Counted from the stretch's first letter, positions 2,422-17,155 are shown. The stretch is DNA of 21,833 nucleotides from a virus (IMGVR_UViG_3300013093_000315:1-21833), one strand, 5' to 3'. Numbers and translations are program-made. The notes: generated from the letters alone by a model not told the origin.

Positions 2422-2626
2422 AAAAAGGATGATCAATTTGTCCAGATACAGGCTCTCCGTTATTTTCAAATTGTGAGGGATCGACGAGTTGAGAATCGAT
2501 CTGCTTACGGATATTTTCCATCATAAAATATACCTCTCTGTATGGAAGCTGATCCAGCAGATCCAACAGTTTATTAGCGCCATTTATATCAAATTGCAAA
2601 TTGATTCTAAAATCTTCCATTTTCAT
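2417..2626 (-). CDS. Small conserved-type phage protein of unknown function, coupled to the radical SAM gene
   Basis: A 69-aa acidic protein without cysteine. Its start overlaps the stop of the radical SAM gene as ATGA; a second in-frame Met lies two codons further. The core (residues ~5-45: 'FRINLQFDINGANKLLDLLD', then 'QLPYREVYFMMENIRKQI') looks like a short beta segment followed by two helices. From memory this 'F.I...N.LL..L.QLPY..V..L...I..Q' pattern is common in small phage proteins of unknown function near structural genes. Its stop codon lies inside the gene 13 late promoter box. The tight coupling would permit a partner or accessory role to the enzyme, but nothing in the sequence shows that. 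Confidence 0.75.
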   Translation of the reverse strand: MKMEDFRINLQFDINGANKLLDLLDQLPYREVYFMMENIRKQIDSQLVDPSQFENNGEPVSGQIDHPFL

Positions 2627-3993
2627 GCTATAGCCTTTTCTCTGGTTTTTGGAACGATTGCTTTTGCTTCTTTATCGCCCCAGATGTTTTTCCTATGCTC
2701 TGGTAGAGCTTCGTTTTCTATGTAGTATGGCAAGAAACCAGTTAGTTTCTCCAATGCAACTGCGAAGAAAGGAATATGATCATCGTATGCATTGTTACAT
2801 GCACGCAGCCAGTAATTTTTTTCCAGATACATGCATGCTCCCTTGCATGTCTGAAGCACTGGGCAGTCAGAACATTCCTTACGTTTTGACCAATGAGTCG
2901 ACGTGTTTAGTTTGATGCTCTCAAACTTGGATACATGACCAATCATATGTGGTTTACCATTGGGAGCTGTAGAAACATTGGAAACATTCTGACATGTAAG
3001 AACGTAACCATTTAAGTCAACAGCAATCGTATCCACGCTGTCCATACCACATTTCTGTCCAAGCGAGGAAGCTGGTCGATTAGAAGAAATACTTTCAATC
3101 CATTCCTGTATACGATTACGAACAACAGCGAATGAATGATTTTTACCTTCGCGAGTTTGTTTCAATGTAAGGCGACGGAAACCAAGACTTTCTTCTTCGT
3201 TCTGAATACTGTTAGCAAGACCACCTTCATCATATGGATCAATAAAGCCACCCTCACCAATAGTAAATCCATTGATACCAAGCTCTTTATAAAAGTTAAC
3301 AAAAAAACTCTGAATAGCAGCGCGATCCATATTCTCGCGATTAACCATAGCATTAAAGCTGATACGGTTTTGTGGAGCAAGTCTTTTAATTAAGTCAATG
3401 ATGCCTTCTTTGGATATTATATCATCGAATGGATCTGGACCACGAACAGGCATTCCTGGACCATCATGAGACAACCCGATAAGAAATCCCATGCGATCGA
3501 TCCACTCATTAATTTCTTCATTCAGTAATGATCCATTTGTGACCATAACAAACTCAGCTTTTGGAAACTTCTCTCTCAGTTGTTCTGCTAATGGCTTCAA
3601 AGTTTTAATATAAACAAGTGGTTCACCACCCCAAAACTCAATACGTCTCGGAGATCCACGTAACCACGTGTCGAGATTCTTTATAAATTTATCAGCTGAT
3701 TTGTTGTTTGTTTCTTCGGCGTGTGGAACAAAGCGTTGTGAACAATACTCACAAGAATAGTTACAAGACAATCCGAGCTGAATTTTTAATGTTTCGATGT
3801 TGGAGCTTTTACCGAGTGGATTTTCTTTGGAAGTAACAGCTGCTTGTTTGTATTTTCTATTCTTCGTTTGTTCTTTTATTTGTGGAACAGCTATAACATT
3901 ACCACTTAAATCCGTTAACGAAGAAGTCATATTATCATAATAGAAAACACGTTCTTCCGCGCCTCTACGCGAGTGTATTTTAAATAAAGCCAT
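2623..3993 (-). CDS. Radical SAM/SPASM peptide-modifying enzyme (anaerobic sulfatase-maturase-like)
   Basis: A 456-aa radical S-adenosylmethionine enzyme. The CxxxCxxC motif that binds the SAM-cleaving 4Fe-4S cluster is C77/C81/C84 (SCNYSCEYC). The SAM-binding 'WGGEP' is at 121-125, followed by 'VTNGSLL' (151-157) and 'LSHDGPG' (174-180). The C-terminal SPASM domain is textbook: C315, then G329-x4-C334, then C374-x2-C377-x5-C383-x3-C387, then C399, seven Cys predicted to ligate two auxiliary 4Fe-4S clusters. Known SPASM enzymes modify peptides or proteins (formylglycine formation, thioether or C-C crosslinks, epimerisation), so a phage or host polypeptide substrate is likely. About 65 N-terminal residues precede the core; I see no clear RiPP recognition element. 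A strong AAAGGTGA ribosome binding site precedes the ATG. It lies two genes downstream of the Cys-Asn proteins, which are the obvious candidate substrates (inference). The reaction cannot be told from sequence. Confidence 0.93.
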   Translation of the reverse strand: MALFKIHSRRGAEERVFYYDNMTSSLTDLSGNVIAVPQIKEQTKNRKYKQAAVTSKENPLGKSSNIETLKIQLGLSCNYSCEYCSQRFVPHAEETNNKSADKFIKNLDTWLRGSPRRIEFWGGEPLVYIKTLKPLAEQLREKFPKAEFVMVTNGSLLNEEINEWIDRMGFLIGLSHDGPGMPVRGPDPFDDIISKEGIIDLIKRLAPQNRISFNAMVNRENMDRAAIQSFFVNFYKELGINGFTIGEGGFIDPYDEGGLANSIQNEEESLGFRRLTLKQTREGKNHSFAVVRNRIQEWIESISSNRPASSLGQKCGMDSVDTIAVDLNGYVLTCQNVSNVSTAPNGKPHMIGHVSKFESIKLNTSTHWSKRKECSDCPVLQTCKGACMYLEKNYWLRACNNAYDDHIPFFAVALEKLTGFLPYYIENEALPEHRKNIWGDKEAKAIVPKTREKAIA

Positions 3994-4014: not shown

Positions 4015-4863
4015 TTATGGTTTTGTATACGTCAACGCAAATATTGAAGAAAACCATTTAAAACCAAATTTGATAGTCGCAGTTTCACCAGAAGTCATAC
4101 CAGCAGAGCTGAAATTAAATGTCGCTCTACCATTATTTAGAGCTACTTTATTTGGCGTTATACCATAATCGGAAGTAATGTAAATGTCAGCTACAGCATT
4201 GTTTGGAACTCCGACAATAATCTGACCGCCATCTGCATTTTGATTTAGAAAACGTGCACCAAGGTTTGGATAATAGTATCTTTTTGTTTCATACCCAGGA
4301 GTTAAAATAATGAATCGCTGAGTTTGCACATTCTGTGTAATATTAGAAGTAATGTTCGTATTTTGACCACCACTTATAGAAAAAAAACACTGTTTAAAAG
4401 AAGATGCTTCAGGAATTGTAACGAGTTGAAAAAATGAATTCCATGTTTTTGTTGGATTTAATACTACGTTATTCTTAATAAAATCAGAAAAACGCTGTTT
4501 GGTAACAGCTGTTTGTGGATATAAATTAAAAATTGGTTCATGATTGCCATATTTGTCAGCGTTCAAAATCCAACGATCGAATCCACTATACGTTGAATCA
4601 TTTTTAAGTTGATCCCAAGTAATTGTTGTTTTTTTCTCACCAACAAGACCGCCTGTATCATTAAGAACAGTTGGTGTATTTGTAGTAATCGTAATTTTTT
4701 GATCTTCAACTTGAACGTCAATCGAATTTAAAACACTCGCATAATCTTTGTAAACTACCATTCTGAACTGATCGTAATCAGAAATAAGCTGGTTGTATTG
4801 ATCAAGTGTTACAAGATCAAAAACATTTACCTGAGGAATTGTTAAATTGGCTAGATCAGTCAT
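4015..4863 (-). CDS. Putative virion / fibre-associated protein of unknown function
   Basis: A 282-aa protein I do not recognise. The N-terminal ~65 residues look helical (TIPQVNVFDLVTLDQYNQLI and following) and may form an assembly segment. The middle is mixed alpha/beta ('TITWDQLKNDSTYSGFDRWI', 'TKTWNSFFQLVTIPEA'). The last ~110 residues are Asn/Thr-rich beta-type ending in an Ig-like stretch ('ADIYITSDYGITPNKVALNN', 'ATFNFSSAGMTSGETATIKF'). It has a single cysteine, unlike its upstream neighbours. Its first eight bases overlap the end of the Hint-protein gene, and its ribosome binding site (TAGGAAA) lies inside that gene, indicating coupling. Position between the Cys-rich proteins and the radical SAM enzyme suggests a structural or partner role in the same tail element; this is inference. 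Confidence 0.8.
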   Translation of the reverse strand: MTDLANLTIPQVNVFDLVTLDQYNQLISDYDQFRMVVYKDYASVLNSIDVQVEDQKITITTNTPTVLNDTGGLVGEKKTTITWDQLKNDSTYSGFDRWILNADKYGNHEPIFNLYPQTAVTKQRFSDFIKNNVVLNPTKTWNSFFQLVTIPEASSFKQCFFSISGGQNTNITSNITQNVQTQRFIILTPGYETKRYYYPNLGARFLNQNADGGQIIVGVPNNAVADIYITSDYGITPNKVALNNGRATFNFSSAGMTSGETATIKFGFKWFSSIFALTYTKP

Positions 4864-6001
4864 TTTTGTTTCCTAATAGATTTGCTACAGACCCTACTAT
4901 CTTAAATGTAATATTGCAAACAACTTTACCTAATTTCCATTTAATTAAAGAGTTTGCGACTAATTTATTTAATATCTTAGAGTTTATTTTACCAAGTATA
5001 ATGCTGGTTAAATAAGCTCCATAATTTATATCTTTTCCAGAATTTGAATATCTGTAAAGTAATTCGTTTATATTTTCATTTGTGAGCAAACCCTGCTCGT
5101 ATGCGTAGCGCATGAACCCACCATCACCAATAATAGAAGTTGTACCATAACCATTTACGATATAAGTTCCATCTCCATCAACCCAAAGATTATATACCTT
5201 TTCGTCTGTCGAATCAACAATATTAACAATAGCAAATGGTTTATTTTTACCTAACCATGGATAAGAATCATAATTTTTATCAGGATCAACAGATGTTAAA
5301 CCTCCATTAGTATATAGAGGATGGTTTGATGTAGCGAATGGTTCAATGTTGTATGTTGGTGAATACAAATTTTGGAAATCTGAAGCGTTTGCACTTTCGA
5401 AATATACGACTGTATTTATTTGTGTTTTATCATGGTTGAAAACTTTGTCGCCAACTTTAATTTGACTGATCGGAACTTCTTCACCATCAGCAAGACAAAC
5501 CATAGTTTCTTCTGTAAAACAACCTCCCCCACAGTTACAGTTGCAGTTACAGTTGCAGTTTGTATAACAATTACCTACAGAGTTATATCCGCTGTTGCAG
5601 TTACAATTATAATAATTTCTCGTGTAATCTGTACCACGAATACGATCAATCAAAACGCTATACGCATCGTATATAAAAGTAACTTGAGCTACTGGATAAT
5701 ATGCTGTTGAACTTGGTAATTGAAAACCACCTGGATTACCACAGAGTCCAGGCATACCAGAAACACCCCATGTCCACCAGCTACCATTTGGTGGATTCCA
5801 GTAGCCATTTCCGTAACAGTTACCGCCTGGCAAAATACCAGTGCAGTTACCTGTTCTGTTATCTATATATGTGTTGTAACGTATACGCTGACCAATAGCT
5901 GTATCGCCAGCTATAAATCCCATACTATTGATATCTGTACCAGATGATATAGCTGCACCGCTATTATCATATGATGTGGTAGTGTTTATCTTCAAACTCA
6001 T
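4856..6001 (-). CDS. Cys-Asn tract protein fused to a Hint self-processing domain
   Basis: A 381-aa two-part protein. Residues 1-157 are paralogous to the 160-aa neighbour: both share 'GNCYGN.YWNPPNGSWWTWGV', 'DRIRG....R.Y.NCNC' and an alternating Cys-Asn tract (here C149, 151, 153, 155, 157). After GGG (158-160) a Hint (Hedgehog/intein) domain begins at C161 (CFTEETMVCLADGEEVPISQ, 'IKVGDKVFNHD'), with the block B 'TSNH' motif (T224, H227) and an 'YNLWVDGDGTYIVNG' block F-like strand (~270-284). The usual terminal His-Asn and downstream Cys/Ser/Thr of splicing inteins are not seen ('NGYGTTSIIGDGG'), so N-terminal cleavage as in Hedgehog-type proteins is more likely than splicing. A further ~80 residues (300-381) look helical and basic. 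Predicted result: release of the N-part with a Cys-Asn-Gly tail. The ribosome binding site TAGGAT includes the upstream gene's stop. Confidence 0.88.
   Translation of the reverse strand: MSLKINTTTSYDNSGAAISSGTDINSMGFIAGDTAIGQRIRYNTYIDNRTGNCTGILPGGNCYGNGYWNPPNGSWWTWGVSGMPGLCGNPGGFQLPSSTAYYPVAQVTFIYDAYSVLIDRIRGTDYTRNYYNCNCNSGYNSVGNCYTNCNCNCNCNCGGGCFTEETMVCLADGEEVPISQIKVGDKVFNHDKTQINTVVYFESANASDFQNLYSPTYNIEPFATSNHPLYTNGGLTSVDPDKNYDSYPWLGKNKPFAIVNIVDSTDEKVYNLWVDGDGTYIVNGYGTTSIIGDGGFMRYAYEQGLLTNENINELLYRYSNSGKDINYGAYLTSIILGKINSKILNKLVANSLIKWKLGKVVCNITFKIVGSVANLLGNKND
5519..5560 (-). other. Junction of Cys-Asn tract and Hint nucleophile
   Basis: Codons 148-161 of the Hint-fusion protein. Five Cys codons alternate with Asn in near-identical hexamers (TGT/TGC AAC), followed by three Gly codons (GGT GGA GGG) and the TGT codon of C161, the predicted N-S acyl-shift nucleophile. 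The scissile bond would be G160-C161. Family knowledge: the Hint active site uses the first Cys and the block B Thr/His, both present here. That cleavage actually occurs is inference. Confidence 0.65.
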
Positions 6002-6010
6002 TTATAAATC

Positions 6011-6493
6011 CTAGCAGTTGCAGTTACAATTGCAGTTACAATTACAGTTACAGTTGTTAAAAGAACCAAAATCGCTTGAGCAGTTGCAGTTGCTATAAGC
6101 ACGATGTATCTCTTGACCTCTGATACGATCATAAAGCAAATAATAGCCATCATATACTAAATTTACTGCTATATTATAAAAGTTGCAGTTTGTTTGACCA
6201 CCACCAAAATCATATCCATAATCGTTAGAGCAAAGACAGTTAACACCAACACCCCATGTCCACCAACTACCATTTGGTGGATTCCAATAAGGATTTCCGT
6301 AACAGTTACCACTTGGTAAATACCCACGACAATTGGTTGCAAGGTCGTCTGTGTATGTTGAATATCGAGCTAACTGACCGATGTCACCACCTTGTGTAAC
6401 AAATCCCATATTACCAGCATCACTACCGCTACGAGCCGAATAGTGAATATTACTGTTGTCGATTACTTGTGTGCCACCAACATAAAATGCCAT
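6011..6493 (-). CDS. Small Cys-rich protein ending in an alternating Cys-Asn tail
   Basis: A 160-aa protein with 14 cysteines. Its last 14 residues (147-160) are seven Asn-Cys pairs, ending with Cys at the very C-terminus. Other Cys are C55, C64, C86, C88, C103, C136 and C138. The body shares 'GNMGFV..GGDIGQ.ARY.TY', 'SGNCYGNPYWNPPNGSWWTW' and 'VYDGYYLLYDRIRG' with residues 1-157 of the downstream Hint-fusion protein, so the two are paralogs and this one has no Hint domain. I see no signal peptide. In an extended strand the tail would place all Cys on one face and all Asn on the other, suited to metal or Fe-S binding, disulfide zippers, or enzymatic crosslinking; which applies is unknown. The start is one base after the preceding stop, with AGGGTAA as ribosome binding site. 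Confidence 0.87.
   Translation of the reverse strand: MAFYVGGTQVIDNSNIHYSARSGSDAGNMGFVTQGGDIGQLARYSTYTDDLATNCRGYLPSGNCYGNPYWNPPNGSWWTWGVGVNCLCSNDYGYDFGGGQTNCNFYNIAVNLVYDGYYLLYDRIRGQEIHRAYSNCNCSSDFGSFNNCNCNCNCNCNCNC
6014..6055 (-). repeat. Hexanucleotide repeat encoding (Asn-Cys)7
   Basis: Seven imperfect copies of a six-base unit AA[C/T]TG[T/C] encode the C-terminal tail of the 160-aa protein, directly before its TAG stop. The unit is a multiple of three, so gain or loss of copies would alter tail length without a frameshift. Synonymous variation between copies (TGT/TGC, AAC/AAT) argues for selection on the protein pattern rather than very recent slippage. Confidence 0.85.
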
Positions 6494-6753: not shown

Positions 6754-8310
6754 TTAATTACCCTTTTCTAATTCAGCTACTCTCTGCTCGAGCTCTTTAA
6801 TAGCTTCAAGTAACAGAGGTACAAGTTTTTCGTATTGAACTGTGAGATATTTGTTATTACCTGGAGCTGGTTTAACTGCCTCTGGTAATATTGATTGCAC
6901 TTCCTGAGCGGAAACACCAACACGAGATAGTTGATTATTCTCGATACCAAGTTGAATTGCTGTGTCGTTAGGCATGTAGTAAAAACCATTAAGAGCTTTT
7001 ACTTTATTCAATGCATTATCGATATTATTGATGCGTGTTTTTAAACGATCGTCAGAATATGCAGTAACAACGTCGCCTGTAAAATAACCAGAACCTGTAA
7101 CGATAATTGGAGCTGAAATGGAGAAATTTGTTCCGTTCCAGTAAATGTACTTAGCACCACTATTACCAAAGAAAAGCGCTCCGTTATCTGGATAACCTGA
7201 ACCACTACGAGTTAAAGCAATGTCTCCAGTAAATGTACCACCAGAAAATGATACTTTACCATTAGTTAATGAATTAACATAAGTGTTTGTTGCAAATGTA
7301 CCATTAACATATGTGTTAGAAGCAGCATATGCTTGTGTTGCGAAAACCGAATATACTGCAGTGTTCTGAGCAAATGTTGAGAAAACAGCTGTATTCTGAG
7401 CAAAAGCAGCATATGCTGCAGTGTTCTGAGCAAATGTACCATTAACATATGTGTTAGAAGCAGCGTATGCAAGAGCGTTAGTATAAGCTGCTGTAGAGTA
7501 ACCAATCAATGTAGTAGCTGTGTTACCGTTCAGATAAAGAGCATTGTTTGCTACGATGTTTGGTTGTGAAACAGTTTGAAGTGTACCAGTAAGGTTTGTT
7601 GCATTTACGTTAATAACATTAATGTTTGCCCCGTTGATGGTTGTTGTACCACCAATCGTAACAGTTCCAGTAACAGCCAGTGTGTTTGAAAGAGATGTTG
7701 CACCAGTAACTGCTAATGTGTTAGAAAGAGCAACGTTACCAGCAATTATCGCAGAATTTGATATTGTAACATTTCCTGTCACTGACAGTGTATTTGCCAG
7801 AGTAGCAGCGCCAGTAACACCAAGCGAGCTAAAAAGATTAGCTGCAGCAGAAACACCAAATGTGGATAATACGTTGGCAGCACCAGTTACCGAAAGGGTA
7901 TTCGCAATTGTTGTTGCGCCAGTTACCGATAAAGTATTAGCGAAATTTACGTTCCCAGTTACTGAAAAGGTATTGACGAAAGTCGCGTTACCAGTTATAA
8001 TAACACTGTTAGCGAAAGATGCATTGCCAGTTACAGATAGAGTATTGCTAATAACTGTGTTGCCTGTAACAGCTAGAGTGTTGGATAGGGTTGCAGAACC
8101 AGTAACGGAGAGAGTATTCGCGAGCGTAGCAGCGCCTGTGGATCTGGTTGTTCCCGTCACAGAGAAATTACCCTGTACGTTGGCTGTACCAGTAATTGTT
8201 AAGTTAGCATCTGGTGTTGCGTTGCTAATACCAACTTTACCGCCAGTAGCGTAAATTAAATTGGTGTTGACAATAAGTCCGTTCTTGACGGTAAAATCTT
8301 TATCTGACAT
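6754..8310 (-). CDS. Tail fibre with 12-residue repeat stalk and C-terminal S74 peptidase/chaperone domain
   Basis: A 518-aa fibre protein. Residues ~1-40 are a short head (FTVKNGLIVNTNLIYATGG, 'VGISNATPDANLTITG') typical of phage fibre N-termini. Residues ~42-230 consist of about 15 copies of a 12-residue unit (consensus xxTxxNTLxVTG), expected to build a trimeric beta-helical stalk. Residues ~275-350 contain a second repeat (FAQNTAxYxx, 'AYAASNTYVNGTFA'). A 'GGTFTGDIALTRSG' beta region follows. The last 100 residues are an S74 intramolecular chaperone: S419-D-D-R-L-K424 carries the Ser and Lys of the proposed autocleavage dyad, then 'VGVSAQEVQSILPEAV' and a C-terminal coiled coil. Known S74 domains trimerise the fibre and then cut themselves off at the Ser. 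It has a strong GGGGAG ribosome binding site and its own late promoter, and is the first gene of its transcript. Confidence 0.93.
   Translation of the reverse strand: MSDKDFTVKNGLIVNTNLIYATGGKVGISNATPDANLTITGTANVQGNFSVTGTTRSTGAATLANTLSVTGSATLSNTLAVTGNTVISNTLSVTGNASFANSVIITGNATFVNTFSVTGNVNFANTLSVTGATTIANTLSVTGAANVLSTFGVSAAANLFSSLGVTGAATLANTLSVTGNVTISNSAIIAGNVALSNTLAVTGATSLSNTLAVTGTVTIGGTTTINGANINVINVNATNLTGTLQTVSQPNIVANNALYLNGNTATTLIGYSTAAYTNALAYAASNTYVNGTFAQNTAAYAAFAQNTAVFSTFAQNTAVYSVFATQAYAASNTYVNGTFATNTYVNSLTNGKVSFSGGTFTGDIALTRSGSGYPDNGALFFGNSGAKYIYWNGTNFSISAPIIVTGSGYFTGDVVTAYSDDRLKTRINNIDNALNKVKALNGFYYMPNDTAIQLGIENNQLSRVGVSAQEVQSILPEAVKPAPGNNKYLTVQYEKLVPLLLEAIKELEQRVAELEKGN
6757..7056 (-). 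other. S74 intramolecular chaperone autoprocessing domain (part of fibre)
   Basis: Codons 419-518 of the fibre. Autocleavage is expected at the Ser of SDDRLK. The Ser-Asp and the Lys five residues after the Ser match, from family knowledge, endosialidase-type and phi29 gp12-type S74 domains. The terminal 'LVPLLLEAIKELEQRVAELE' heptad pattern is the usual coiled coil. The mature fibre would therefore be about 418 residues. Confidence 0.85.
7620..8187 (-). repeat. 36-bp coding repeat array (12-residue stalk units)
   Basis: About fifteen degenerate 36-bp units encode the NTLSVTG-type stalk of the S74 fibre. Copies vary at synonymous and non-synonymous sites. The array leaves a long open frame on the opposite strand that is only a shadow. 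Such arrays are prone to recombination that changes stalk length in whole units. Confidence 0.85.
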
Positions 8311-8342
8311 GGTTCACTCTCCCCACTGTTCTTGTTTTTTAT

Positions 8343-8351
8343 TATTTATAG
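8343..8351 (-). promoter_or_regulatory. T4-type late promoter box CTATAAATA upstream of the S74 fibre gene
   Basis: The minus strand reads CTATAAATA, containing the exact T4 late consensus TATAAATA. It lies 33 nt upstream of the S74 fibre ATG, at the edge of the longest gap in the window (35 nt). It overlaps the TAA stop of the oxygenase gene in the register TA-TAA-ATA, the same arrangement as the gene 13 promoter. It probably starts a transcript covering the S74 fibre, the Cys-Asn proteins and the radical SAM gene. Confidence 0.78.
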
Positions 8352-8975
8352 TTCTACGTAGTTCCGCACGTCATCTATAACTTTTATATTTGTTACAAGA
8401 GCAATAAGGTCGATATCGGCTAAATTTAGCTCTGTTGTATGAAAAACACTAGCTGGATGAATTACAAAAGTTCCTGGTAATGGACGTATTGCACTCAACA
8501 TATTATGATTGAGGTAGCGATGGCGCATTGGCATTGGGTCGATCATATGTAGTCGATTACCAGCCATTTTCTGATGTACATTCGAACTATCATCGGTAAC
8601 ACCAACCTGTAAAAATAAAACAGCCACATAATCCACCGAGCGATGGTTGTGTGGTTTAGCGTATTCTTGTGGTCCAAACCGACGCATATTGGTAACAGCT
8701 TCAAATTTTACCTTTTCTGGCTCATTAAATCCTTCTGCCGTAGCTAATTCAATCATGCGCTGTTTTAAAATAGTTTTAAAGATTTGACAAGGTTGACGTT
8801 CGTCAGCTAACAAATTGTAAGATGTTTCTTTATTTTTCCTCATCGCATACGGGACGTGCGCCTCTGGATTCTGAGCTTCATACTCTGAACCAATTTCAAT
8901 CAGTTGGTTAAGAAACTGATCACCACTGATCTGATCTGTTAATATGTTTGTTGGCCATAAAGCTTTTACTGTCAT
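8346..8975 (-). CDS. Probable Fe(II)/2-oxoglutarate-dependent oxygenase
   Basis: A 209-aa protein resembling the small phage 2OG-Fe(II) oxygenases common in T4-like marine phages. Visible features are an N-terminal 'ALWPTNILTDQI' start, a metal site 'KPHNHRSVDYVAVLFLQV' (candidates H109, H111, D115) and the distal segment 'PGTFVIHPASVFHTTEL' (H179, possibly H173), equivalent to the family's 'PG.L..FPS...H.V'. The conserved Arg that usually binds the 2OG carboxylate ten or so residues after the distal His is not seen ('LADIDLIALVTNI'), so cofactor use may differ or the enzyme may be divergent. Such enzymes hydroxylate protein side chains or nucleobases; the substrate here is unknown. The start overlaps the upstream 249-aa gene (ATGA), and its stop is inside a late promoter. 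Placement among fibre genes hints at a virion protein substrate (inference). Confidence 0.75.
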   Translation of the reverse strand: MTVKALWPTNILTDQISGDQFLNQLIEIGSEYEAQNPEAHVPYAMRKNKETSYNLLADERQPCQIFKTILKQRMIELATAEGFNEPEKVKFEAVTNMRRFGPQEYAKPHNHRSVDYVAVLFLQVGVTDDSSNVHQKMAGNRLHMIDPMPMRHRYLNHNMLSAIRPLPGTFVIHPASVFHTTELNLADIDLIALVTNIKVIDDVRNYVEL

Positions 8976-9721
8976 ACTACTACCTTAAATTTTGAAATGT
9001 TTGGCCAGAACTTGTATCCAGCTTTTATTTCAACAATTTCACCTTTATATAACCCTTCAACATTTAAATTGAATTGAACTCCGCTTTTGCATTTTGTTCT
9101 GTTCAAAACACCAGCCGATGCCCAAAGATATATATCTGCCTGTGTGTCAGCTTCAACTACGTAGCAATGATCGGATATTTCTTTTATCGATATTGGTAGC
9201 CAATTATTTAAAAACTCTTTAATTGATTTCATAACATTTTGAGTTTGCTCGACATCATCTATAAAAAATTTGTGTGTTGTTCCAGCATGTTCGTAATCAA
9301 CGCTATGATAAACAATCGTACAATCGTTGTAAAAACAATTTTTATATGGAGTTAGAACGAAAAGAATAGGAATAAGATTAAGCTGAGTCATCGCCCATGC
9401 GGGAGATGCGATGTTATGTTTTCCCTCTCCGTTTAAATCTGTATTCGTAGAGTATTCAGAATTGTAAAGGGAACTGTAAGATTTACCAAATGGAGCTCTG
9501 TATGGTTTTGTAAATCTTGTTGTTTCATACCAAACCATTTCGAGTGTTTTCTTATCATAACCCAAAGCTATACAGCCATGATCTTCCGAATAACTATCGA
9601 TAATTTTTTGTAAGTAAAATGTTTGAATATCATCAGATCTTTTAACGATTAAAGTACTATCGTTCAATCGCATTTCTGTTGAAAATGTTAACATTTTCCT
9701 GTTATTAACAAATAAATTCAT
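8972..9721 (-). CDS. Protein of unknown function upstream of the oxygenase
   Basis: A 249-aa protein I do not recognise. Unlike its Asn/Thr-rich neighbours it has an ordinary globular composition, with charged residues, five Cys and several aromatic clusters: 'HGCIALGYDKKTLEMVWYET', 'PYRAPFGKSYSSLYNSEYST', 'SPAWAMTQLNLIPILFVLTP', 'HSVDYEHAGTTHKFFIDDVE'. No transmembrane segment or signal peptide is clear. Composition and the ATGA overlap with the oxygenase suggest an enzyme or accessory factor acting together with it, rather than a fibre. The start lies nine bases after the giant LamG gene stop; only a weak ribosome binding site (GGATAT) is present. Confidence 0.75.
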   Translation of the reverse strand: MNLFVNNRKMLTFSTEMRLNDSTLIVKRSDDIQTFYLQKIIDSYSEDHGCIALGYDKKTLEMVWYETTRFTKPYRAPFGKSYSSLYNSEYSTNTDLNGEGKHNIASPAWAMTQLNLIPILFVLTPYKNCFYNDCTIVYHSVDYEHAGTTHKFFIDDVEQTQNVMKSIKEFLNNWLPISIKEISDHCYVVEADTQADIYLWASAGVLNRTKCKSGVQFNLNVEGLYKGEIVEIKAGYKFWPNISKFKVVV

Positions 9722-9730
9722 GAAAACAAA

Positions 9731-12700
9731 TTATATCCAAATTTCACTAATAGTTCCACCACCAGAAACAGTTACTGGTGTAACAGTACTTGTTATGTAT
9801 ATTTGCTGCGTGTTAGCATAAACGTATTTAGCGTTCGCAGCGTATATTTGAATTGTAGATAAATTAGCCATAGCTGATTTGTTAATTAAAGGTACGTTGA
9901 TATACGAAATGATTGAACTGTTTGTAGTAATAACTGGTTGTTTAGAGCCTGTTACTGTTAACGTATTCGAATTACCAAACGGACTATTCATTACCATAGT
10001 TGGGCTATATCTGTTTGACTGTGTAATTAGATTGTTATACTGAGAACTATCGATAACAGCTTCTGCCGCGAAAGGATTCTTATTTACAAAGAAAGTTGGA
10101 TTTCCAACTGGTGTTGAGTAACCATTCGAATAACCAGAAATAACATCGAAATATAAACCAGCATCAGACAAAGACAAATAAGAAGTTGTTCCGAAATTGA
10201 TACCGTTCGTAATGTTAAATGGTTCGGTCGGTGGTGTAAAATTGGATGTGTAAAGCGCAACAAATTTTGTAATACGAAGATTTGACAAATAACCATCAAA
10301 CTGTTGAGTATTGTTTGTTTGATAACCATCAGAATTGCCGATAGAAAACAATGTACCAATTGATGGACTTGGAGCTGCTATAACACTTCCTGCAATAACA
10401 CCATTAACAAAAAATGTTAATAATCCAGATTTTCTTACCCATGCCACATGATACCAGTTGTTTATAGACATATTGTGGTTAGCATTGCTTATGTATTGCA
10501 CGCCAGCAAATTGCATAAACATTTTGGTTCTACCAATAAAGAAAGCCATACCATCAGTATAAGATCCACCACTTGTTGTACCAACAATATAAAAACCAGA
10601 TCCAATAGTATCACCAGCTGGTAATGATGTTAAATTAACCCATCCTTCAACTGTAAAATCGAGATAACCAAAACCAAATGGAGCTCCACCCAAATTACCG
10701 TAAGTTGTAGCCATGTAATTGTTGTTAAGCTTATCAAAGCGGAAACTTTGACCTGTTGAAGTTCCTTGTCCAATTAACAACAGATTGTTTATATTGTTTG
10801 GATCAGTTGGGTTAGAAGGAACAGTTCCTGGAGTAAATATCGTTGTAACAGTGTTAGAAAATGTTGGGCTGTTGTTAGTTGAAATAACGTTGCCCCATGA
10901 GCCTACACCATACACCGAAAGGTTATTTGTTATAGTAAAGTTGTTTGATGAGTTATCAATTATCGCTGTATTTTGAGCTGTTAACAGTACTGTGTTACTG
11001 ATAGCTGTAAGAGGAGCTGATGGAGTAGTAAAGTTTGTCGTATAAACGCCTGTACCTTTTACAATACGGAAGTTAGACATATAACCTTGCCAGTTAAATG
11101 TATTTCCAGTTCCACCAGTAGCGCCAATTGGTTTAGAGTTCGCATCAGTATAGTTGTTTGTATCTGATGTATTACTACCAATAATTGTACCATTCAGATA
11201 CATGTTCGAATTACCAGAAACACGCGAAACAGCAACATGCGACCAAGTTCTTAATGGTAATTGGGTTGATGTTGATATTACGTTACCAGAGTCAGTAGCA
11301 TAAACTAATCCAGTGTTGCTCCATGCTAACCATGGTGATGTTGCAGAACCACTCTTATAACCCCAGATCCAATAATACGAATAAGAAGAATTACTAGTCA
11401 CATTAGTTGGTCCAAAACCAACAGGATAAACCCATGTTTCAAGCGTAAAGTCGCCAGTACCAAAAGAAAACGCTGAGTTAGCTGGTGTTGAAAGGAATGT
11501 GTTCGAACCATCGAAATAATAACTATTCGATGTTACACGTGTTTGAATTATATTGGAGTTAGCAATTCTTAAATTGCTTACGTAGCCATTGAAAAAATTA
11601 TTTACACCACCAAGCTGAGAAGCACCAACGTAAATTAAAGTTGATGAGTTACCAAAAACATTAGAATATGCAATAGTGTTTGAAAGAGAACTGTTTGTAT
11701 AAAGATATACGTTAGCAGAATCTTTTACAATAGTAACATATGTCCAAGTGTTTGGAGTTATAGATGGACCAGTAATTATGTTGTTTCCATCATATGAATA
11801 GGTAAGTGTACCATTATTCATATACAAATTCCAGTTACCTAAACCACCAGTATTTGAAGATAGCTGATCGATAATAACAGAGTTACCAGTATTAGAAGTT
11901 GGATATATCCATGCATCTATAACAGCATTAGAAAAACTGCCATATTGGAAAGATGTTACTTGGAAATTATTACCATATCCAAAAGTTGATAAACTATATC
12001 CTACGTTTGCACCAAAATAACCAGAAGAATCAGTTAAAATATTATTCTGTGAGGTTATTAAATATGTTTGTGCTGTAGAGTTTGAAACTGGCAACAGTGG
12101 AGATGTCGGTACAGGAATAGATGCTATTGGGGTTGTATTTGAAGCTGATGGATAAACAAGCGTGTTGCTAACACGAAGATTACTTACATAACCATGAATA
12201 AAACTGTTATTCCATTCTCCAATGTTTATATAACATTGAGGACCAGCTTCGTAATCAGTTGTGTTTATAGTGGCTGAATATGGAATACCGTCAACATACA
12301 ATGTTAAATTATAACCATTTTTTACTGCAGCAATATGAGTCCATTTACCAACAGGAATTGTTGTTGGATGTATAACAGAAATAGCAGATCCAGTCCAAAT
12401 ATAAAATACCAACTGGCCATTTAAGTTCGGACCAAAAGACCATTGAAGGTATGTGTTATTGATTGTACCATAACCTATTAGTCCACTTTGAGTAGTGCTG
12501 TTACCCCAGTTTGATGAAAATGAAAGAGGATATATCCAAGCCTCGATACAAAACTGTTGTAAAATAGGAAGAGAACTTAATAATTTCCATTGACCAGGTG
12601 CGATTGTCGGTTGTCCAGCAATCCCCTGAGTGCCATTGAAATAATAACTATAAGTTCCAGAAAAAGGAACAACAGTATTTGAAAATCCAACAGAACCACC

Positions 12701-15700
12701 ACTCCAAACAGTACTACCAATCGGATCATTAAATGGTGTTTTAATACTCGCAATATTAGCAGTAAGCAAAATTGTTGTATTGCTGGTAGGTAATAATGGA
12801 GCAGTTGGAACAGTAATAGTAGATGCTGTTGAATCGTATGCGTTCGAAAAACCACTTACTCTTATATTCGACAAATAACCCTTGAAAGCTGATGTTGTAG
12901 TATTACCAGCAATGTAGTTTATAGAACCAAATGATGTTGTGATTGCAACGTTACCAGTTGTTGATTTCGTACCATTGACAAAAACAGTAGTTGCGTTTGT
13001 AGTTGGATTTCTATTTACTGCGATATGGTACCAAGTATTACCAGCCAAGGTAACAGGAGAAGTAAAGTTTGTACCAGAAACAGAAAAATTTGTTGTGTTT
13101 GTAGCAGTAAGGTAAAATGGTGATCCTAAGCTGCTGCTTACAAGCTGATATGGGAAAACGTTGTTGTTGAAATAAGCAAACATTTCAACTGTAAAACCAG
13201 AAGAAAAGTTAGGAAACGCTAAAGAACCAAGAGATTGCAATATTTGGGACTGGCCATCAAATTCAAAACTAAACGTATTAGCAAAAGGAATTATGTTGGT
13301 ATTTGTTTTTACTCCAAGCCATGGAGAAGAAGTAAAACCATAACTACGTAGTAATGTTGAGTTGGCAGTTGCAGCATCATTTAAATTGCCCATCGTTTGA
13401 CAGGTAAGAATAGTTGTAGTAGCAGTAGAGTTACTGATATATGTTAAGTTTGCTGTAGGTGGTGTGAAGTTAGTGGTATAAAGAGCGCTACCATTTATAA
13501 CTCTGAGATTTGAAATATAACCATTAAAATAAGAGACCTGGTTTGTTTCAGAACCAATGTAAGTGTTCGAACCAAGACCTGTTGAGTTAGCAAACGTGTT
13601 ACTACCGATCGATGTACCATTTACATAAAATGTAACAACACCATTGTTTCTAACATAAGCAAGATGATACCAAGTATTTGCAGAAATTCCGTGTACGTTT
13701 GTCGACAGATACTGAACATCGTTTACCTGAATACTAAGATGTTGCGAACCAATTAAACAATCAATACCATCTGCTAAAGATGGCGTACCAGTTCCAACAA
13801 GAACAAAGGTGTTAGAAGCTTGTGCTGGCCAAGTATCCTGAGTTGGTAAACCAGTAAGGTTAACGAACGCCTCAACAGTAAAGTTATTTGTACCAAAATG
13901 CATTGGCAACATATCGCGCTGAGATAATGTAGTTGAAACTGTATTTGTAAAACGCCAGCTCGCAGCAGGAGTAAATGGAACAACAGTATTAGAAAACTGA
14001 ATTGTTGAAGAAACAATGATGTTGTTTGTTGAACTATTATCAATCAAAATTGGTGACTGCGCAGTAAGTAATGTTGTATTGGTTGAAGCAGTTAATGCTG
14101 TATTTGATGGTGTAAAATTAGTTGTATAAAGCGCATTACCTTTTGTAATACGAATATTTGAAATGTATCCTTCAAAATAAGTGCATGACTGTCCTTGTTC
14201 GTTACCAATAACAAGAGCTTTACCACCATCTGTAATGGTTGCTGAGAGAGCTTGTGTATTAGCAAGAACACCATTTACCCAAAGATTTAATGTTGTTCCC
14301 TGTTTTGTTGCTGCGATATGATTCCATGTTCCAAAATTTATTGCAACGTTCGAATAAATTTGTTGTATTGAGGTAACACCATTACCACTACCAACACGAA
14401 ATGCTGGATACCACCATCCACTACCAGAAGTAAAAGCAGAAGGACTAAGGTATAAATTATAAGATGGATATGTTGAACCAGAAACACCATCTTTATCTAA
14501 TATCGATTGTATGTTAGTATTACTGTTTGAAGGACCAATTGCTTCAGAAAAAACATATGCTTCAACAGTAAAATCGCCAGATGATAAATTTAAATTAGCA
14601 TTGTATGTTACGTTTGCTTGTGATGTACCATTAAAATAAATGCTATACGTATTTGGGAATGGAGTATCTGTGTTTGTAATAATAGGTCCAGTAGGAACCC
14701 ATGGTGTATTGTTTGGATTGTTTGGACTATTGTCGATAAGAGTATTCGACTGCGCTGTCAACATTAATGTTGAACTGTTTCCAGTTAAAGCTGTTGTTGG
14801 TGGTGTGAATGATTTGTATACTGCACCTTTAGTAATACGAACATTTGAAACATAACCATCCATTTTATCAATGTTTGAAGTCCAATATGGTACTGATGCT
14901 CCACTTTGGAAACTATAATACGTATTACTTGATGGTCCAGAATAATTTGTTGTTGTTGTACCTTGTAGAATACCATCAACATACAAAAATGTTACACCAA
15001 GATATCTTTGAACAACACAATGATGCCATTGTCTTGGAATTAATGGAGGAGCGTTAATATATAATGTTCCATTAATTGCGAAATGAAGACTGTTAACATA
15101 TTGTTCTAGATAAACTCTATTTGATGTTGTATTATCATTTAATTCAAAAAGCGTATAATACTGATTTAATGTAGCAGCTGATTGATTTTGTTCGTTTATG
15201 TACGCCCAGCACTCCATTGTAAAATCATGGTTATTAAAATCAAAAGTCGAATATGAAATAGTAACAGGAACAAGGTTAGCATAACCTGTATTCGAAATCG
15301 TAAGGTTAAATGGACTTTGATCTGTTAATGAAGAAGAGTTAAAGGTTAACAGCGAAAGATTTGTTGATGTTGTATTACTGAATGTAGAATTCGGTGGAAT
15401 AAAGTTTGAGTTGTATACTGTATTACCATTCGTAATTCTAAGATTTGAAATATATCCTTTAAATGCACTGTTAGATGCAGTATTTCCATCGCCTGGATAT
15501 GCGTCAATTCCAATAGTTAAAGCATTGTTAGTATACCAAAATGGAATACTATAATTAGTAGCATTAGCTGTAGTTGTTGATATTAATGAACCATTTCTAT
15601 ATAAACGGAATGCTCTATCATTTTTAACTAAAGCTAAATGAGACCAAGTATTAATTGGAAGAGTTCCATATCCTATATTTGTATCATTACCTACCGCGCC

Positions 15701-17155
15701 AAGACCATTAACAATTCCTAGACCATAACCACCATTATTAATGTTTTGACCAATTCGAACATAATTTCCAACCGATTGGTTTATTGAATTCGAATTTAAT
15801 TCTAAAAAAGAAGTCCAGTTTGTAGAAGGAGCAGCAGTTGGATATGTCCAAAATTCAATACAAAAGTTATTACTACCAAAATTAAAAGCTGATGTATTAG
15901 CAATAGAAAAAGAACTGTTTCCTGTCATATAAACAGCATATGTGCTAAATGATCCTGTTGATGATAGTGCCGTATTTTGTTGAATGTTTGTTGATGTGTA
16001 AAGAGTAACATTGCTTACTGGTACAGGAAGGTTACCTGGATTACCATATGTTGCTGTTGTATTGTAATTTATTGGATTGTTTGGATTTAATGATGAAGGA
16101 TCAGCACCAGTTCCGAATGATGTATCTTGTAAAGAAGGATACTGCAATCCTAAAAATAGTATCTGAGTGTTTGGAGAAACATAATCTGATAAAGGTAACT
16201 GCGGTGGAGTAAACACAGTATTAGGCGCATAAATTACGTACTGCCCGTTTGTATTATTTGCTTGAGTACTTGTTGAAAATCTAAAATTAGATAGATAGGC
16301 GTTTAACGGCTGTGTCAACGAACTGCCGTTCATAAGAACGCCAATAACCAATTGGTTATTGGAAGGAAAATTTGTTGTATATGTTAAGTTACCAAAATTT
16401 AATGTATTACTATAATAAGTTGGATATCCATTAATCCATGTGCAAATACCGTTGGTGCTTGTTCTTGAAAGAACAACGTGATTCCAAACACCATGAGGAA
16501 TATAACCTACAGTTTGGTTTATCGTCCATGATGTACCAGTATTACTCATTAAAAGTGTTAAAGAGCTACCGTTTGCAGCTGCAGCAGCATCAAGTCTTAC
16601 TGTTCCATATGAATTGTTTGTTGAATTTTGATTAAGAATAAAAATTGTACCATTTGTATTAGCTTGTTTATTGATATAAAATTCAATACAAAACTGGTTT
16701 AAACCAGTTCCAAATTCGTTACCTGTTCTATCGTTCCAAGCTAATATATCATTAACACCATTAAAATAATATGCGTAACTGTTACCTACGTTATACCCAG
16801 GTGCGAAAATAAATGATTGAGAATTATAAGAAGATGCATACTGTATAGCATTAGCAATAAACGGAGGTGCTATGTTAGCCATTGTCTGATAGTTGAACGA
16901 TGAATTAACAGTCAGATAATCGCTTGTACCATTAAAGAGAATACTACCGCCTTGCAAATTTGCAGTCTTATTTAAAGTTACTGTGTTTGCGCGAGAAAAA
17001 ATTACGTTACCAGAAAACACATTACCAGAAACAGCATACGTAGAAAACACAGGAGTTTCAAACTTGTCAACACTTTCATATTGATTGTTTGAACTTCTTG
17101 TTGAATTTACTACCAGATTTGCTGCGCTGAATATTGCGTTTACTAAAACTGTCAT
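9731..17155 (-). CDS. Giant tandem-LamG adhesin (2474 aa, about ten LamG-like domains)
   Basis: A 2474-aa protein that takes up a third of the window. It contains about ten LamG/concanavalin-A-like jelly-roll domains. Each opens with 'FNG...' and 'F(C/T)(I/V)E.(W/F).(Y/N)', has a central 'W.H(V/I)A..R....T.(Y/W)VNG' and closes with 'GY(I/V/L)SN(L/I/F)R(I/V)'. Approximate domain spans are 130-300, 415-590, 635-790, 850-1015, 1080-1230, 1310-1440, 1520-1670, 1730-1870, 1895-2045 and 2155-2310. Linkers carry 'LLTAQS..LIDNS.N', a pattern I associate with aquatic-phage tail proteins. An isolated 'FNGTSDYLTVN' at 74-84 looks like a truncated extra domain. LamG folds bind glycans, so binding to host surface polysaccharide or virion decoration is likely. 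The gene begins one base after the preceding stop with no clear Shine-Dalgarno, suggesting translational coupling. The C-terminus ends 'PVTVSGGGTISEIWI'. Confidence 0.9.
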   Translation of the reverse strand: MTVLVNAIFSAANLVVNSTRSSNNQYESVDKFETPVFSTYAVSGNVFSGNVIFSRANTVTLNKTANLQGGSILFNGTSDYLTVNSSFNYQTMANIAPPFIANAIQYASSYNSQSFIFAPGYNVGNSYAYYFNGVNDILAWNDRTGNEFGTGLNQFCIEFYINKQANTNGTIFILNQNSTNNSYGTVRLDAAAAANGSSLTLLMSNTGTSWTINQTVGYIPHGVWNHVVLSRTSTNGICTWINGYPTYYSNTLNFGNLTYTTNFPSNNQLVIGVLMNGSSLTQPLNAYLSNFRFSTSTQANNTNGQYVIYAPNTVFTPPQLPLSDYVSPNTQILFLGLQYPSLQDTSFGTGADPSSLNPNNPINYNTTATYGNPGNLPVPVSNVTLYTSTNIQQNTALSSTGSFSTYAVYMTGNSSFSIANTSAFNFGSNNFCIEFWTYPTAAPSTNWTSFLELNSNSINQSVGNYVRIGQNINNGGYGLGIVNGLGAVGNDTNIGYGTLPINTWSHLALVKNDRAFRLYRNGSLISTTTANATNYSIPFWYTNNALTIGIDAYPGDGNTASNSAFKGYISNLRITNGNTVYNSNFIPPNSTFSNTTSTNLSLLTFNSSSLTDQSPFNLTISNTGYANLVPVTISYSTFDFNNHDFTMECWAYINEQNQSAATLNQYYTLFELNDNTTSNRVYLEQYVNSLHFAINGTLYINAPPLIPRQWHHCVVQRYLGVTFLYVDGILQGTTTTNYSGPSSNTYYSFQSGASVPYWTSNIDKMDGYVSNVRITKGAVYKSFTPPTTALTGNSSTLMLTAQSNTLIDNSPNNPNNTPWVPTGPIITNTDTPFPNTYSIYFNGTSQANVTYNANLNLSSGDFTVEAYVFSEAIGPSNSNTNIQSILDKDGVSGSTYPSYNLYLSPSAFTSGSGWWYPAFRVGSGNGVTSIQQIYSNVAINFGTWNHIAATKQGTTLNLWVNGVLANTQALSATITDGGKALVIGNEQGQSCTYFEGYISNIRITKGNALYTTNFTPSNTALTASTNTTLLTAQSPILIDNSSTNNIIVSSTIQFSNTVVPFTPAASWRFTNTVSTTLSQRDMLPMHFGTNNFTVEAFVNLTGLPTQDTWPAQASNTFVLVGTGTPSLADGIDCLIGSQHLSIQVNDVQYLSTNVHGISANTWYHLAYVRNNGVVTFYVNGTSIGSNTFANSTGLGSNTYIGSETNQVSYFNGYISNLRVINGSALYTTNFTPPTANLTYISNSTATTTILTCQTMGNLNDAATANSTLLRSYGFTSSPWLGVKTNTNIIPFANTFSFEFDGQSQILQSLGSLAFPNFSSGFTVEMFAYFNNNVFPYQLVSSSLGSPFYLTATNTTNFSVSGTNFTSPVTLAGNTWYHIAVNRNPTTNATTVFVNGTKSTTGNVAITTSFGSINYIAGNTTTSAFKGYLSNIRVSGFSNAYDSTASTITVPTAPLLPTSNTTILLTANIASIKTPFNDPIGSTVWSGGSVGFSNTVVPFSGTYSYYFNGTQGIAGQPTIAPGQWKLLSSLPILQQFCIEAWIYPLSFSSNWGNSTTQSGLIGYGTINNTYLQWSFGPNLNGQLVFYIWTGSAISVIHPTTIPVGKWTHIAAVKNGYNLTLYVDGIPYSATINTTDYEAGPQCYINIGEWNNSFIHGYVSNLRVSNTLVYPSASNTTPIASIPVPTSPLLPVSNSTAQTYLITSQNNILTDSSGYFGANVGYSLSTFGYGNNFQVTSFQYGSFSNAVIDAWIYPTSNTGNSVIIDQLSSNTGGLGNWNLYMNNGTLTYSYDGNNIITGPSITPNTWTYVTIVKDSANVYLYTNSSLSNTIAYSNVFGNSSTLIYVGASQLGGVNNFFNGYVSNLRIANSNIIQTRVTSNSYYFDGSNTFLSTPANSAFSFGTGDFTLETWVYPVGFGPTNVTSNSSYSYYWIWGYKSGSATSPWLAWSNTGLVYATDSGNVISTSTQLPLRTWSHVAVSRVSGNSNMYLNGTIIGSNTSDTNNYTDANSKPIGATGGTGNTFNWQGYMSNFRIVKGTGVYTTNFTTPSAPLTAISNTVLLTAQNTAIIDNSSNNFTITNNLSVYGVGSWGNVISTNNSPTFSNTVTTIFTPGTVPSNPTDPNNINNLLLIGQGTSTGQSFRFDKLNNNYMATTYGNLGGAPFGFGYLDFTVEGWVNLTSLPAGDTIGSGFYIVGTTSGGSYTDGMAFFIGRTKMFMQFAGVQYISNANHNMSINNWYHVAWVRKSGLLTFFVNGVIAGSVIAAPSPSIGTLFSIGNSDGYQTNNTQQFDGYLSNLRITKFVALYTSNFTPPTEPFNITNGINFGTTSYLSLSDAGLYFDVISGYSNGYSTPVGNPTFFVNKNPFAAEAVIDSSQYNNLITQSNRYSPTMVMNSPFGNSNTLTVTGSKQPVITTNSSIISYINVPLINKSAMANLSTIQIYAANAKYVYANTQQIYITSTVTPVTVSGGGTISEIWI
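10240..16770 (-). repeat. Array of ten diverged LamG-domain repeats
   Basis: The ten domain units of the giant adhesin are recognisable by the recurring codons for GY(I/V/L/M)SN(L/I/V/F)R(I/V), centred near 15445, 14847, 14160, 13515, 12870, 12185, 11580, 11077 and 10287, with the divergent first copy AYLSNFRF near 16300. Unit spacing varies from roughly 500 to 850 bases because linkers differ. Copies are clearly diverged, pointing to old duplication. Confidence 0.8.

Follow-up and report, generated by a model that had tools for sequence, protein, structure and literature searches.

A radical SAM/SPASM gene paired with Cys-rich tracts of phage tail proteins: a candidate RiPP-like system for fibre tips

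Introduction

We have analysed a virus sequence of 21,833 nucleotides (IMGVR_UViG_3300013093_000315:1-21833; "the window" means this whole stretch), in which two adjacent genes encode tail-type proteins with tracts of alternating Cys and Asn, and a gene for a radical S-adenosylmethionine (SAM) enzyme with a SPASM domain lies downstream in the same cluster. A preliminary description of the window had dealt with the two tract proteins and overlooked the main point, namely this radical SAM/SPASM gene, which is the constant partner of the tails. The cluster is probably a phage-encoded system, similar to those of ribosomally synthesized and post-translationally modified peptides (RiPPs), which makes the C-terminal tips of virion proteins of the tail-fibre type. 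On balance, we favour the specific reading that, in unrelated lineages of tailed phages, a dedicated radical SAM/SPASM enzyme makes a (Cys-Asn/Asp/Ala)n fibre end into a multiply thioether-bridged tip, which would be presented through a natural protein end, a Hint domain or a Peptidase_S74 (S74) domain. The analysis shows the following starting points: the architecture of the proteins, their predicted folds and catalytic residues, the near-obligate pairing of tract and enzyme, the gene order, and the tail-fibre identity of several carriers.

Gene organization and the two tract proteins

The window is a virus record of 21.8 kb with T4-type neck and connector genes (Pfam, PHROGs), and every likely gene in it is encoded by the minus strand. 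In the order of transcription, an S74 tail protein (8310-6754) is followed by an open reading frame (ORF) of 85 amino acids (aa), the 160-aa tract protein (6493-6011), the 381-aa protein with tract and Hint domain (6001-4856), a 282-aa protein (4863-4015), the radical SAM protein (3993-2623), a 69-aa ORF and the connector genes. The features of the tract proteins and the enzyme are as follows.

2623..3993, minus strand: radical SAM/SPASM enzyme (putative maturase) P0003, 456 aa (Pfam, PHROGs, NCBIfam, AlphaFold2 (AF2), Foldseek)
4856..6001, minus strand: 381-aa paralog with body, Cys-Asn tract, Hint domain and helical C-terminal extension
5531..5557, minus strand: tract CNCNCNCNC of the 381-aa protein, residues 149-157, 5 Cys, then GGG at 5522-5530
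5102..5521, minus strand: Hint domain, residues 161-300 (sub-threshold Pfam, family alignment, AF2, Foldseek, VIA)
5519-5521, 5330-5332 and 5321-5323, minus strand: codons of the Hint residues C161 (Cys1), T224 and H227 (both block B)
4859..5101, minus strand: C-terminal extension behind the Hint domain, residues 301-381, low-confidence helices (AF2 model)
6011..6493, minus strand: 160-aa tail-type protein with a natural C-terminal Cys-Asn tract (ORF)
6014..6052, minus strand: tract CNCNCNCNCNCNC of the 160-aa protein, residues 148-160, 7 Cys, up to the stop codon

Two adjacent paralogs with a shared body and Cys-Asn tracts had been described, and both ORFs are indeed present, with bodies 51% identical over 162 alignment columns (E 8e-58). 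The seven Cys with which the 160-aa protein naturally closes were likewise found, as were the five Cys plus GGG before C161 in the 381-aa protein. Cutting before C161 would leave a tail resembling that of the 160-aa paralog, as had been proposed; "nearly identical" overstates the likeness, since the cut form would carry five Cys and GGG against seven Cys.

The body family of the 160-aa protein comprises 45 loci, 38 of them with a radical SAM gene. On this same body the tract is the natural end in the 160-aa protein and in loci L155, L293 and L296, and a Hint cap occupies the same sequence point in the 381-aa protein and in L136, L152 and L308. Further conserved Cys are present inside the bodies of tract proteins. 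The 160-aa protein was unmatched in Pfam, PHROGs and NCBIfam; in annotated phages, tblastn gave no direct relative of either tract protein and megablast no match to the window DNA, and the radical SAM protein alone led to further relatives.

Pairing of tract and enzyme

Enzyme-seeded loci were taken from viral contigs and species genomes, and a Cys-X tract was counted when it was C-terminal or preceded a Hint or S74 domain and lay at most 6.5 kb upstream of the radical SAM gene on the same strand, in loci with enough DNA. The tract-seeded set was obtained with a DNA pattern for CNCNCNCNC (97 viral loci); loci were counted when the tract ended an ORF or preceded Hint or S74 and at least 4.5 kb of DNA followed downstream. 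As controls, 76 contigs seeded by a neck protein, with the same neighbourhood and without a radical SAM gene, were used. There is some redundancy among the 210 loci, of which 126 are non-redundant.

A tract was present upstream of the radical SAM gene in 55 of 63 viral and 52 of 64 genome loci (107/127); none of 127 radical SAM-seeded loci had an antisense tract and none of 115 a downstream one. Under a stricter gene rule, 121 of 165 loci overall had a tract. Starting from the tract, the radical SAM gene was found in all 36 of the countable viral loci and in 1 of the 27 other pattern matches. The controls had a tract in 0 of 76 loci (928 genes), and when all ORFs of at least 55 aa were counted, only two spurious 57-aa ORFs with a tract appeared; the tract is therefore no product of chance. 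The gene of a 112-aa tract protein and the enzyme gene are direct neighbours in L012, and in L001 the gene of a 95-aa tract protein and the radical SAM gene are 8 bases apart; the latter contig carries two tract/radical SAM sets (4156-5861 and 7172-10495) with different tract proteins. A precursor gene clustered with its modifying enzyme is a criterion for RiPPs, and the pairing of tract gene and radical SAM gene has this form.

Because of this pairing, the tract is very likely the substrate of the enzyme. It is improbable that the tract stays unmodified, as a metal- or Fe-S-binding tail or a disulfide- or thiol-adhesive one, while the enzyme acts on another part of the tail module. Cys-dense sequences readily bind metals or form disulfides, and the additional conserved Cys of the bodies would suit such a role; this does not explain the 36/36 linkage of tract and enzyme across very different bodies or the direct adjacency of the two in L001 and L012. 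Moreover, the tract is the one constant partner; for the gene of the 282-aa type described below, 66 of 188 loci gave no match.

Composition and position of the tracts

The strict alternation of Cys and Asn seen in the window does not hold generally, a point that the preliminary description had missed: in 101 tracts that were not picked by the Cys-Asn pattern, the 410 spacers were Asn (218), Ala (94), Asp (61) and others (37). These tracts contain 4-12 Cys, mostly 4-6. In the window, the codons of the tract are mixed (AAC/AAT and TGC/TGT), so that it is not an exact DNA microsatellite, and a microsatellite artefact was rejected on this mixture together with the obligate enzyme partner. The more general idea of functionless, neutral hexanucleotide repeats can claim a DNA period of 6, i.e. 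two codons, and the Cys-Asn tracts found in other places, either in unrelated DNA or outside the reading frame. It is extremely improbable, since Asn, Asp and Ala exchange while Cys is kept, and since the tract is placed at the exact C-terminus or ahead of self-cleaving domains.

The tract lies within 10 residues of the protein end in 99 distinct tract proteins and runs directly into a Hint domain in 17. An S74 domain stands immediately behind it in L073 and L119, and a 165-aa domain (KIICxKL...ADQxYG) takes this position in six loci (L029, L034, L044, L046, L171, L173); the latter domain (L029/L171) was without a match in Pfam and PHROGs. The S74 domain cuts itself off spikes and fibres. The use of unrelated self-removing domains, Hint and S74, in the same place is the strongest indirect sign that the tract has to become a C-terminus. 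Location of the tract at an exposed tip in virions is quite probable.

Two variants of the tract deserve separate mention. L073 (1146-1940) encodes a (Cys-Lys)n-rich tract with about 27 Cys directly ahead of its S74 domain; its enzyme relative lies at a distance of 6 kb and, with 33% identity, is one of the most divergent. In L081, L101 and L148 (also L105, L112 and L161), a peptide of 67-79 aa ends in HTHIFYDDYSTACNCNCNCNCSRGIL or close variants; clusters of this second kind contain as many as four different radical SAM genes amid the tail genes, and in L101 a tract-less Hint-tipped fibre adjoins the separate 67-aa tract peptide.

The radical SAM/SPASM enzyme and its likely chemistry

P0003 exceeds the Pfam cut-off for Radical_SAM, and its SAM cluster motif CxxxCxxC (C77/C81/C84) is invariant in 40 of 40 representatives. 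The seven-Cys SPASM motif, CX9-15GX4C-gap-CX2CX5CX3C-gap-C, is complete; its residues C315, G329, C334, C374, C377, C383, C387 and C399 are invariant in the 40 representatives, and all ten catalytic Cys are kept in these 40 non-redundant members. The SPASM model TIGR04085 was passed with 32.2 bits (cut-off 27), and P0003 matches phrog_1802 at 3e-66 (PHROGs). Its best named NCBIfam family is the ranthipeptide maturase PapB (NF047865), at 71.9 bits below a cut-off of 340; other maturases also remained below theirs (SCIFF 40.6/425, TIGR04463 C-rich 34.6/525 and CefB 33.1/600 bits). In the AF2 model (pLDDT 93.8) the N-terminal 60 residues are predicted to form strands and a short helix. The nearest structures in Foldseek were CteB (5why/5wgg), followed by anSMEcpe, ChlB, SuiB, TigE and SkfB, with EpeE more distant; the sequence-profile ranking placed TigE (8vpo) and anSME first.

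Because of the enzyme fold and the acceptor residues, thioether stapling is the likeliest reaction, and by analogy with characterized enzymes we consider it probable. In Ruminococcin C, Asn, Ala and Glu accept Calpha-thioethers, and two bridges start from one Cys-X-Cys pair (PMC6779426). PapB links Cys with Asp or Glu across 0-6 spacer residues, in nested form too (PMC9413430). The tract spacers Asn, Ala and Asp are hence documented thioether acceptors in related systems, which is a chemical analogy only.

A different reaction on the same substrate, such as epimerisation of every second residue (to a D,L strand or a beta-helix of the proteusin type), the making of C-C bonds or an anSME-like conversion of Cys to formylglycine, is rather unlikely. 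The strict two-residue period is what a D,L-alternating strand would require, anSMEcpe, SuiB (C-C) and the more distant epimerase EpeE are among the fold neighbours, and a 2-oxoglutarate (2OG) oxygenase is often in the cluster. On the other hand, the closest sequence family and folds are mostly thioether formers (PapB, CteB, SkfB), the spacers are already known as acceptors, and Cys is invariant in every tract, while epimerisation alone would not require Cys.

The Hint domain

A Hint domain behind the tract of the 381-aa protein had been predicted from short motifs, and the structure searches confirmed this fold. C161 (block A) and T224/H227 (block B) are present as claimed: in an alignment of 22 Hint domains no column other than Cys1 and the block-B His is invariant, and Thr or Ser stands three residues ahead of this His in nearly all of them. 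Pfam gave sub-threshold matches to Hom_end_hint (5e-5), Hint (8.5e-5) and Vint (8e-4) for the window domain, and relatives are above the curated cut-off (JWF gp028 3e-12, L088 2.8e-8). An AF2 model built from 21 sequences has its N-terminal core above pLDDT 90, and every one of its 49 Foldseek matches in the PDB at E<1e-3 is a Hint, intein or hedgehog structure. VIA-align gave Z 16.3 (2.2 A, 127 residues) with the BIL2 domain 6y75 and Z 11.4 with hedgehog 1at0, and C161 (model residue 18) coincides with intein residue 1 in the structural alignment.

The splicing end, a C-terminal His-Asn followed by Cys, Ser or Thr, is absent in the window Hint, which ends in IVNGYGTTSII, and in the tract-Hint set. 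A splicing intein was rejected on this ground, and because the end VNGYGTTSII lacks His-Asn and the nucleophile, N-terminal cleavage or transfer is expected instead of splicing. Judging from these motifs, cleavage before C161 is highly likely.

Whether the tail is released or handed on concerns the fate of the thioester; the preliminary description had suggested that a thioester or a nucleophile-attached group may be left on the tail. A hedgehog-like transfer, in which an amine, a thiol or a small molecule takes over the thioester and the tail becomes covalently joined to another subunit, the 282-aa protein type or a host molecule, is a minor but real possibility and could go together with thioether stapling of the tract. 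The splicing end is likewise lacking in hedgehog and B-type BIL domains, strong nucleophiles lie right beside the thioester, and the separate Hint fibre and tract peptide of L101 could suit ligation in trans. Nevertheless, no acceptor was identified, and simple exposure suffices, as proteins with the same body end in a free tract by translation alone. S74 domains, which take the place of Hint in other phages, release by hydrolysis in known cases.

Hint domains also follow collagen-like GPTG repeats in phage fibres of L205, L206, L224 and L225, on contigs without tract or radical SAM gene; the tract-less L206 retains the HN-C splicing end.

Carriers, neighbouring genes and hosts

Matches to collagen repeats, to Mtd_N or to tail-fibre families were obtained for several of the tract carriers; tail-fibre family matches were found in L084, L133, L097, L079, L113, L017, L155 and JWF gp028. 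No tail-fibre family (Pfam, PHROGs) matched the two tract proteins of the window, the body of which has its homologue in the C-terminal part of the L133, L084 and L155 proteins. The design is spread over myoviruses, siphoviruses and prophages, and the genome loci come from hosts among which are cultured Limnohabitans, Burkholderia paludis, Thalassobius and Nereida.

The neighbouring genes of interest in the window are as follows.

4015..4863, minus strand: 282-aa partner with an Ig/invasin-like domain at the extreme C-terminus (BIG-Ct; fold guessed from sequence)
6754-8310, minus strand: S74 protein near the tract genes (Pfam)
8346..8975, minus strand: 2OG-Fe(II) oxygenase-like protein, phrog_81 (Pfam, PHROGs)
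8972..9721, minus strand: second BIG-Ct protein, 249 aa

The BIG-Ct domain was found in 122 of 188 radical SAM loci, mostly between the tract gene and the radical SAM gene. Relatives of the 2OG protein lie upstream of the radical SAM gene in 27 of 78 viral and 13 of 80 genome loci, and never downstream; it is possible that this oxygenase hydroxylates tract Asn or Asp, or acts elsewhere. L178, L179 and L182 are close relatives of the window region in which the BIG-Ct and 2OG genes are present, without a radical SAM gene between these and the neck genes; the contigs are cut upstream. By eye, the 2474-aa protein at 9731-17155 of the window has many repeats resembling LamG-like concanavalin domains, and a 225-aa ORF between connector and neck genes (L005 6251-6928, L187 4132-4809) resembles a GIY-YIG homing endonuclease, the neck ORF behind it having a late start.

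Proposed mechanism and its weighing

In the proposed mechanism, structural proteins would carry a C-terminal (Cys-X)n, in which X is mostly Asn, Ala or Asp. The radical SAM/SPASM enzyme, using SAM, would generate a 5'-deoxyadenosyl radical and bond the sulfur of each Cys involved to the alpha (or beta) carbon of a spacer residue, and the product would be a rigid tip stapled by thioethers. Some proteins would have the tract made internally, ahead of a removable folding or processing domain. C161 of the 381-aa protein would attack the carbonyl of G160, and the resulting thioester would be released, hydrolysis being the simplest outcome, so that the tract becomes the C-terminus as in the 160-aa paralog; in other phages a self-cleaving S74 chaperone would stand in place of Hint. 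Such a tip would probably be used in contact with the host or in the assembly of the fibre. A role in host contact is a guess because of the location on fibres, and we give it an even chance.

Several points weigh against this mechanism. No biochemistry was found for any family member. The Pfam matches of the window Hint are all under the curated cut-offs, and the confidence of its model is good in the core only (mean pLDDT 68.8). No RiPP-recognition domain was found in the enzyme (Pfam), so that substrate recognition is unaccounted for, and the bodies of tract proteins differ widely. The counts include redundant loci, an upstream tract being present in 76 of 105 non-redundant ones under the stricter gene rule, and about 16% of the radical SAM-seeded loci are without a tract by the rule used; since a shorter or displaced tract is in fact present in several loci that were scored negative (L048, L284, L292), the enzyme-seeded fraction is a lower bound. 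Finally, some tracts (CACACACNC) have one Asn per five Cys, and the acceptors would therefore have to include Ala.

Comparison with known systems and significance

The system resembles ranthipeptide and sactipeptide RiPPs (PapB, CteB, RumMC1/2, SkfB) in that a Cys-rich ribosomal substrate adjoins a radical SAM enzyme with a three-Cys SAM motif and a seven-Cys SPASM domain, that the fold is nearest to CteB, and that the spacers include known thioether acceptors. It differs in that the phage substrate is the C-terminus of a structural protein and not a small leader-bearing peptide; no leader cleavage, exporter or RiPP-recognition domain was found for it, and the NCBIfam cut-offs are missed widely. 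With the Hint superfamily (BIL, hedgehog Hog, Vint) the phage domain shares the fold, Cys1, the block-B Thr/Ser-x-x-His and the place behind a passenger; it lacks the C-terminal His-Asn and nucleophile, sits behind a Cys-X tract and is paired with a radical SAM enzyme. The S74 chaperone is likewise a C-terminal self-removing fibre domain, with the same kind of tract ahead of it in L073 and L119, but its sequence is unrelated to Hint and the tract proteins of the window do not use it.

The nearest isolated examples are the Achromobacter phages JWF and 2-1, in which a fibre with tract and Hint (JWF gp028, encoded directly behind the central tail fibre gene) precedes by two genes a radical SAM protein with 44% identity (gp030 in JWF). 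JWF differs from the window in being a siphophage (PMC9959647) with an unrelated fibre body, and the JWF and 2-1 proteins are annotated merely as Hint family and radical SAM, without function. Radical SAM cassettes are contained in host-recognition clusters of pelagimyophages (PMC7029224), and the Campylobacter phages CP220 and CPt10 have 11-12 radical SAM genes (PMC2853527); in the accessible parts of these two papers, they are treated as metabolic or variable cassettes, with no Cys tract, substrate or tail modification described. The literature search gave no description of a tract, radical SAM and Hint system, in agreement with the preliminary description, although most subscription papers were outside its scope and novelty is provisional; the design is widespread and not confined to one phage, which the preliminary description had missed. 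What is provisionally new is the system as a whole, as its components, Hint and radical SAM/SPASM, are of known kinds.

If the proposed mechanism is true, part of the viral adhesion apparatus is made with a radical chemistry that is known to date from the making of peptide antibiotics and of a few enzyme cofactors. The mechanism would provide a function for phage radical SAM genes (phrog_1802) that are now listed as "other" or read as metabolic, and would explain the Hint domains on some phage fibres. It would also supply enzymes able to staple the C-termini of proteins that have no evident leader peptide.

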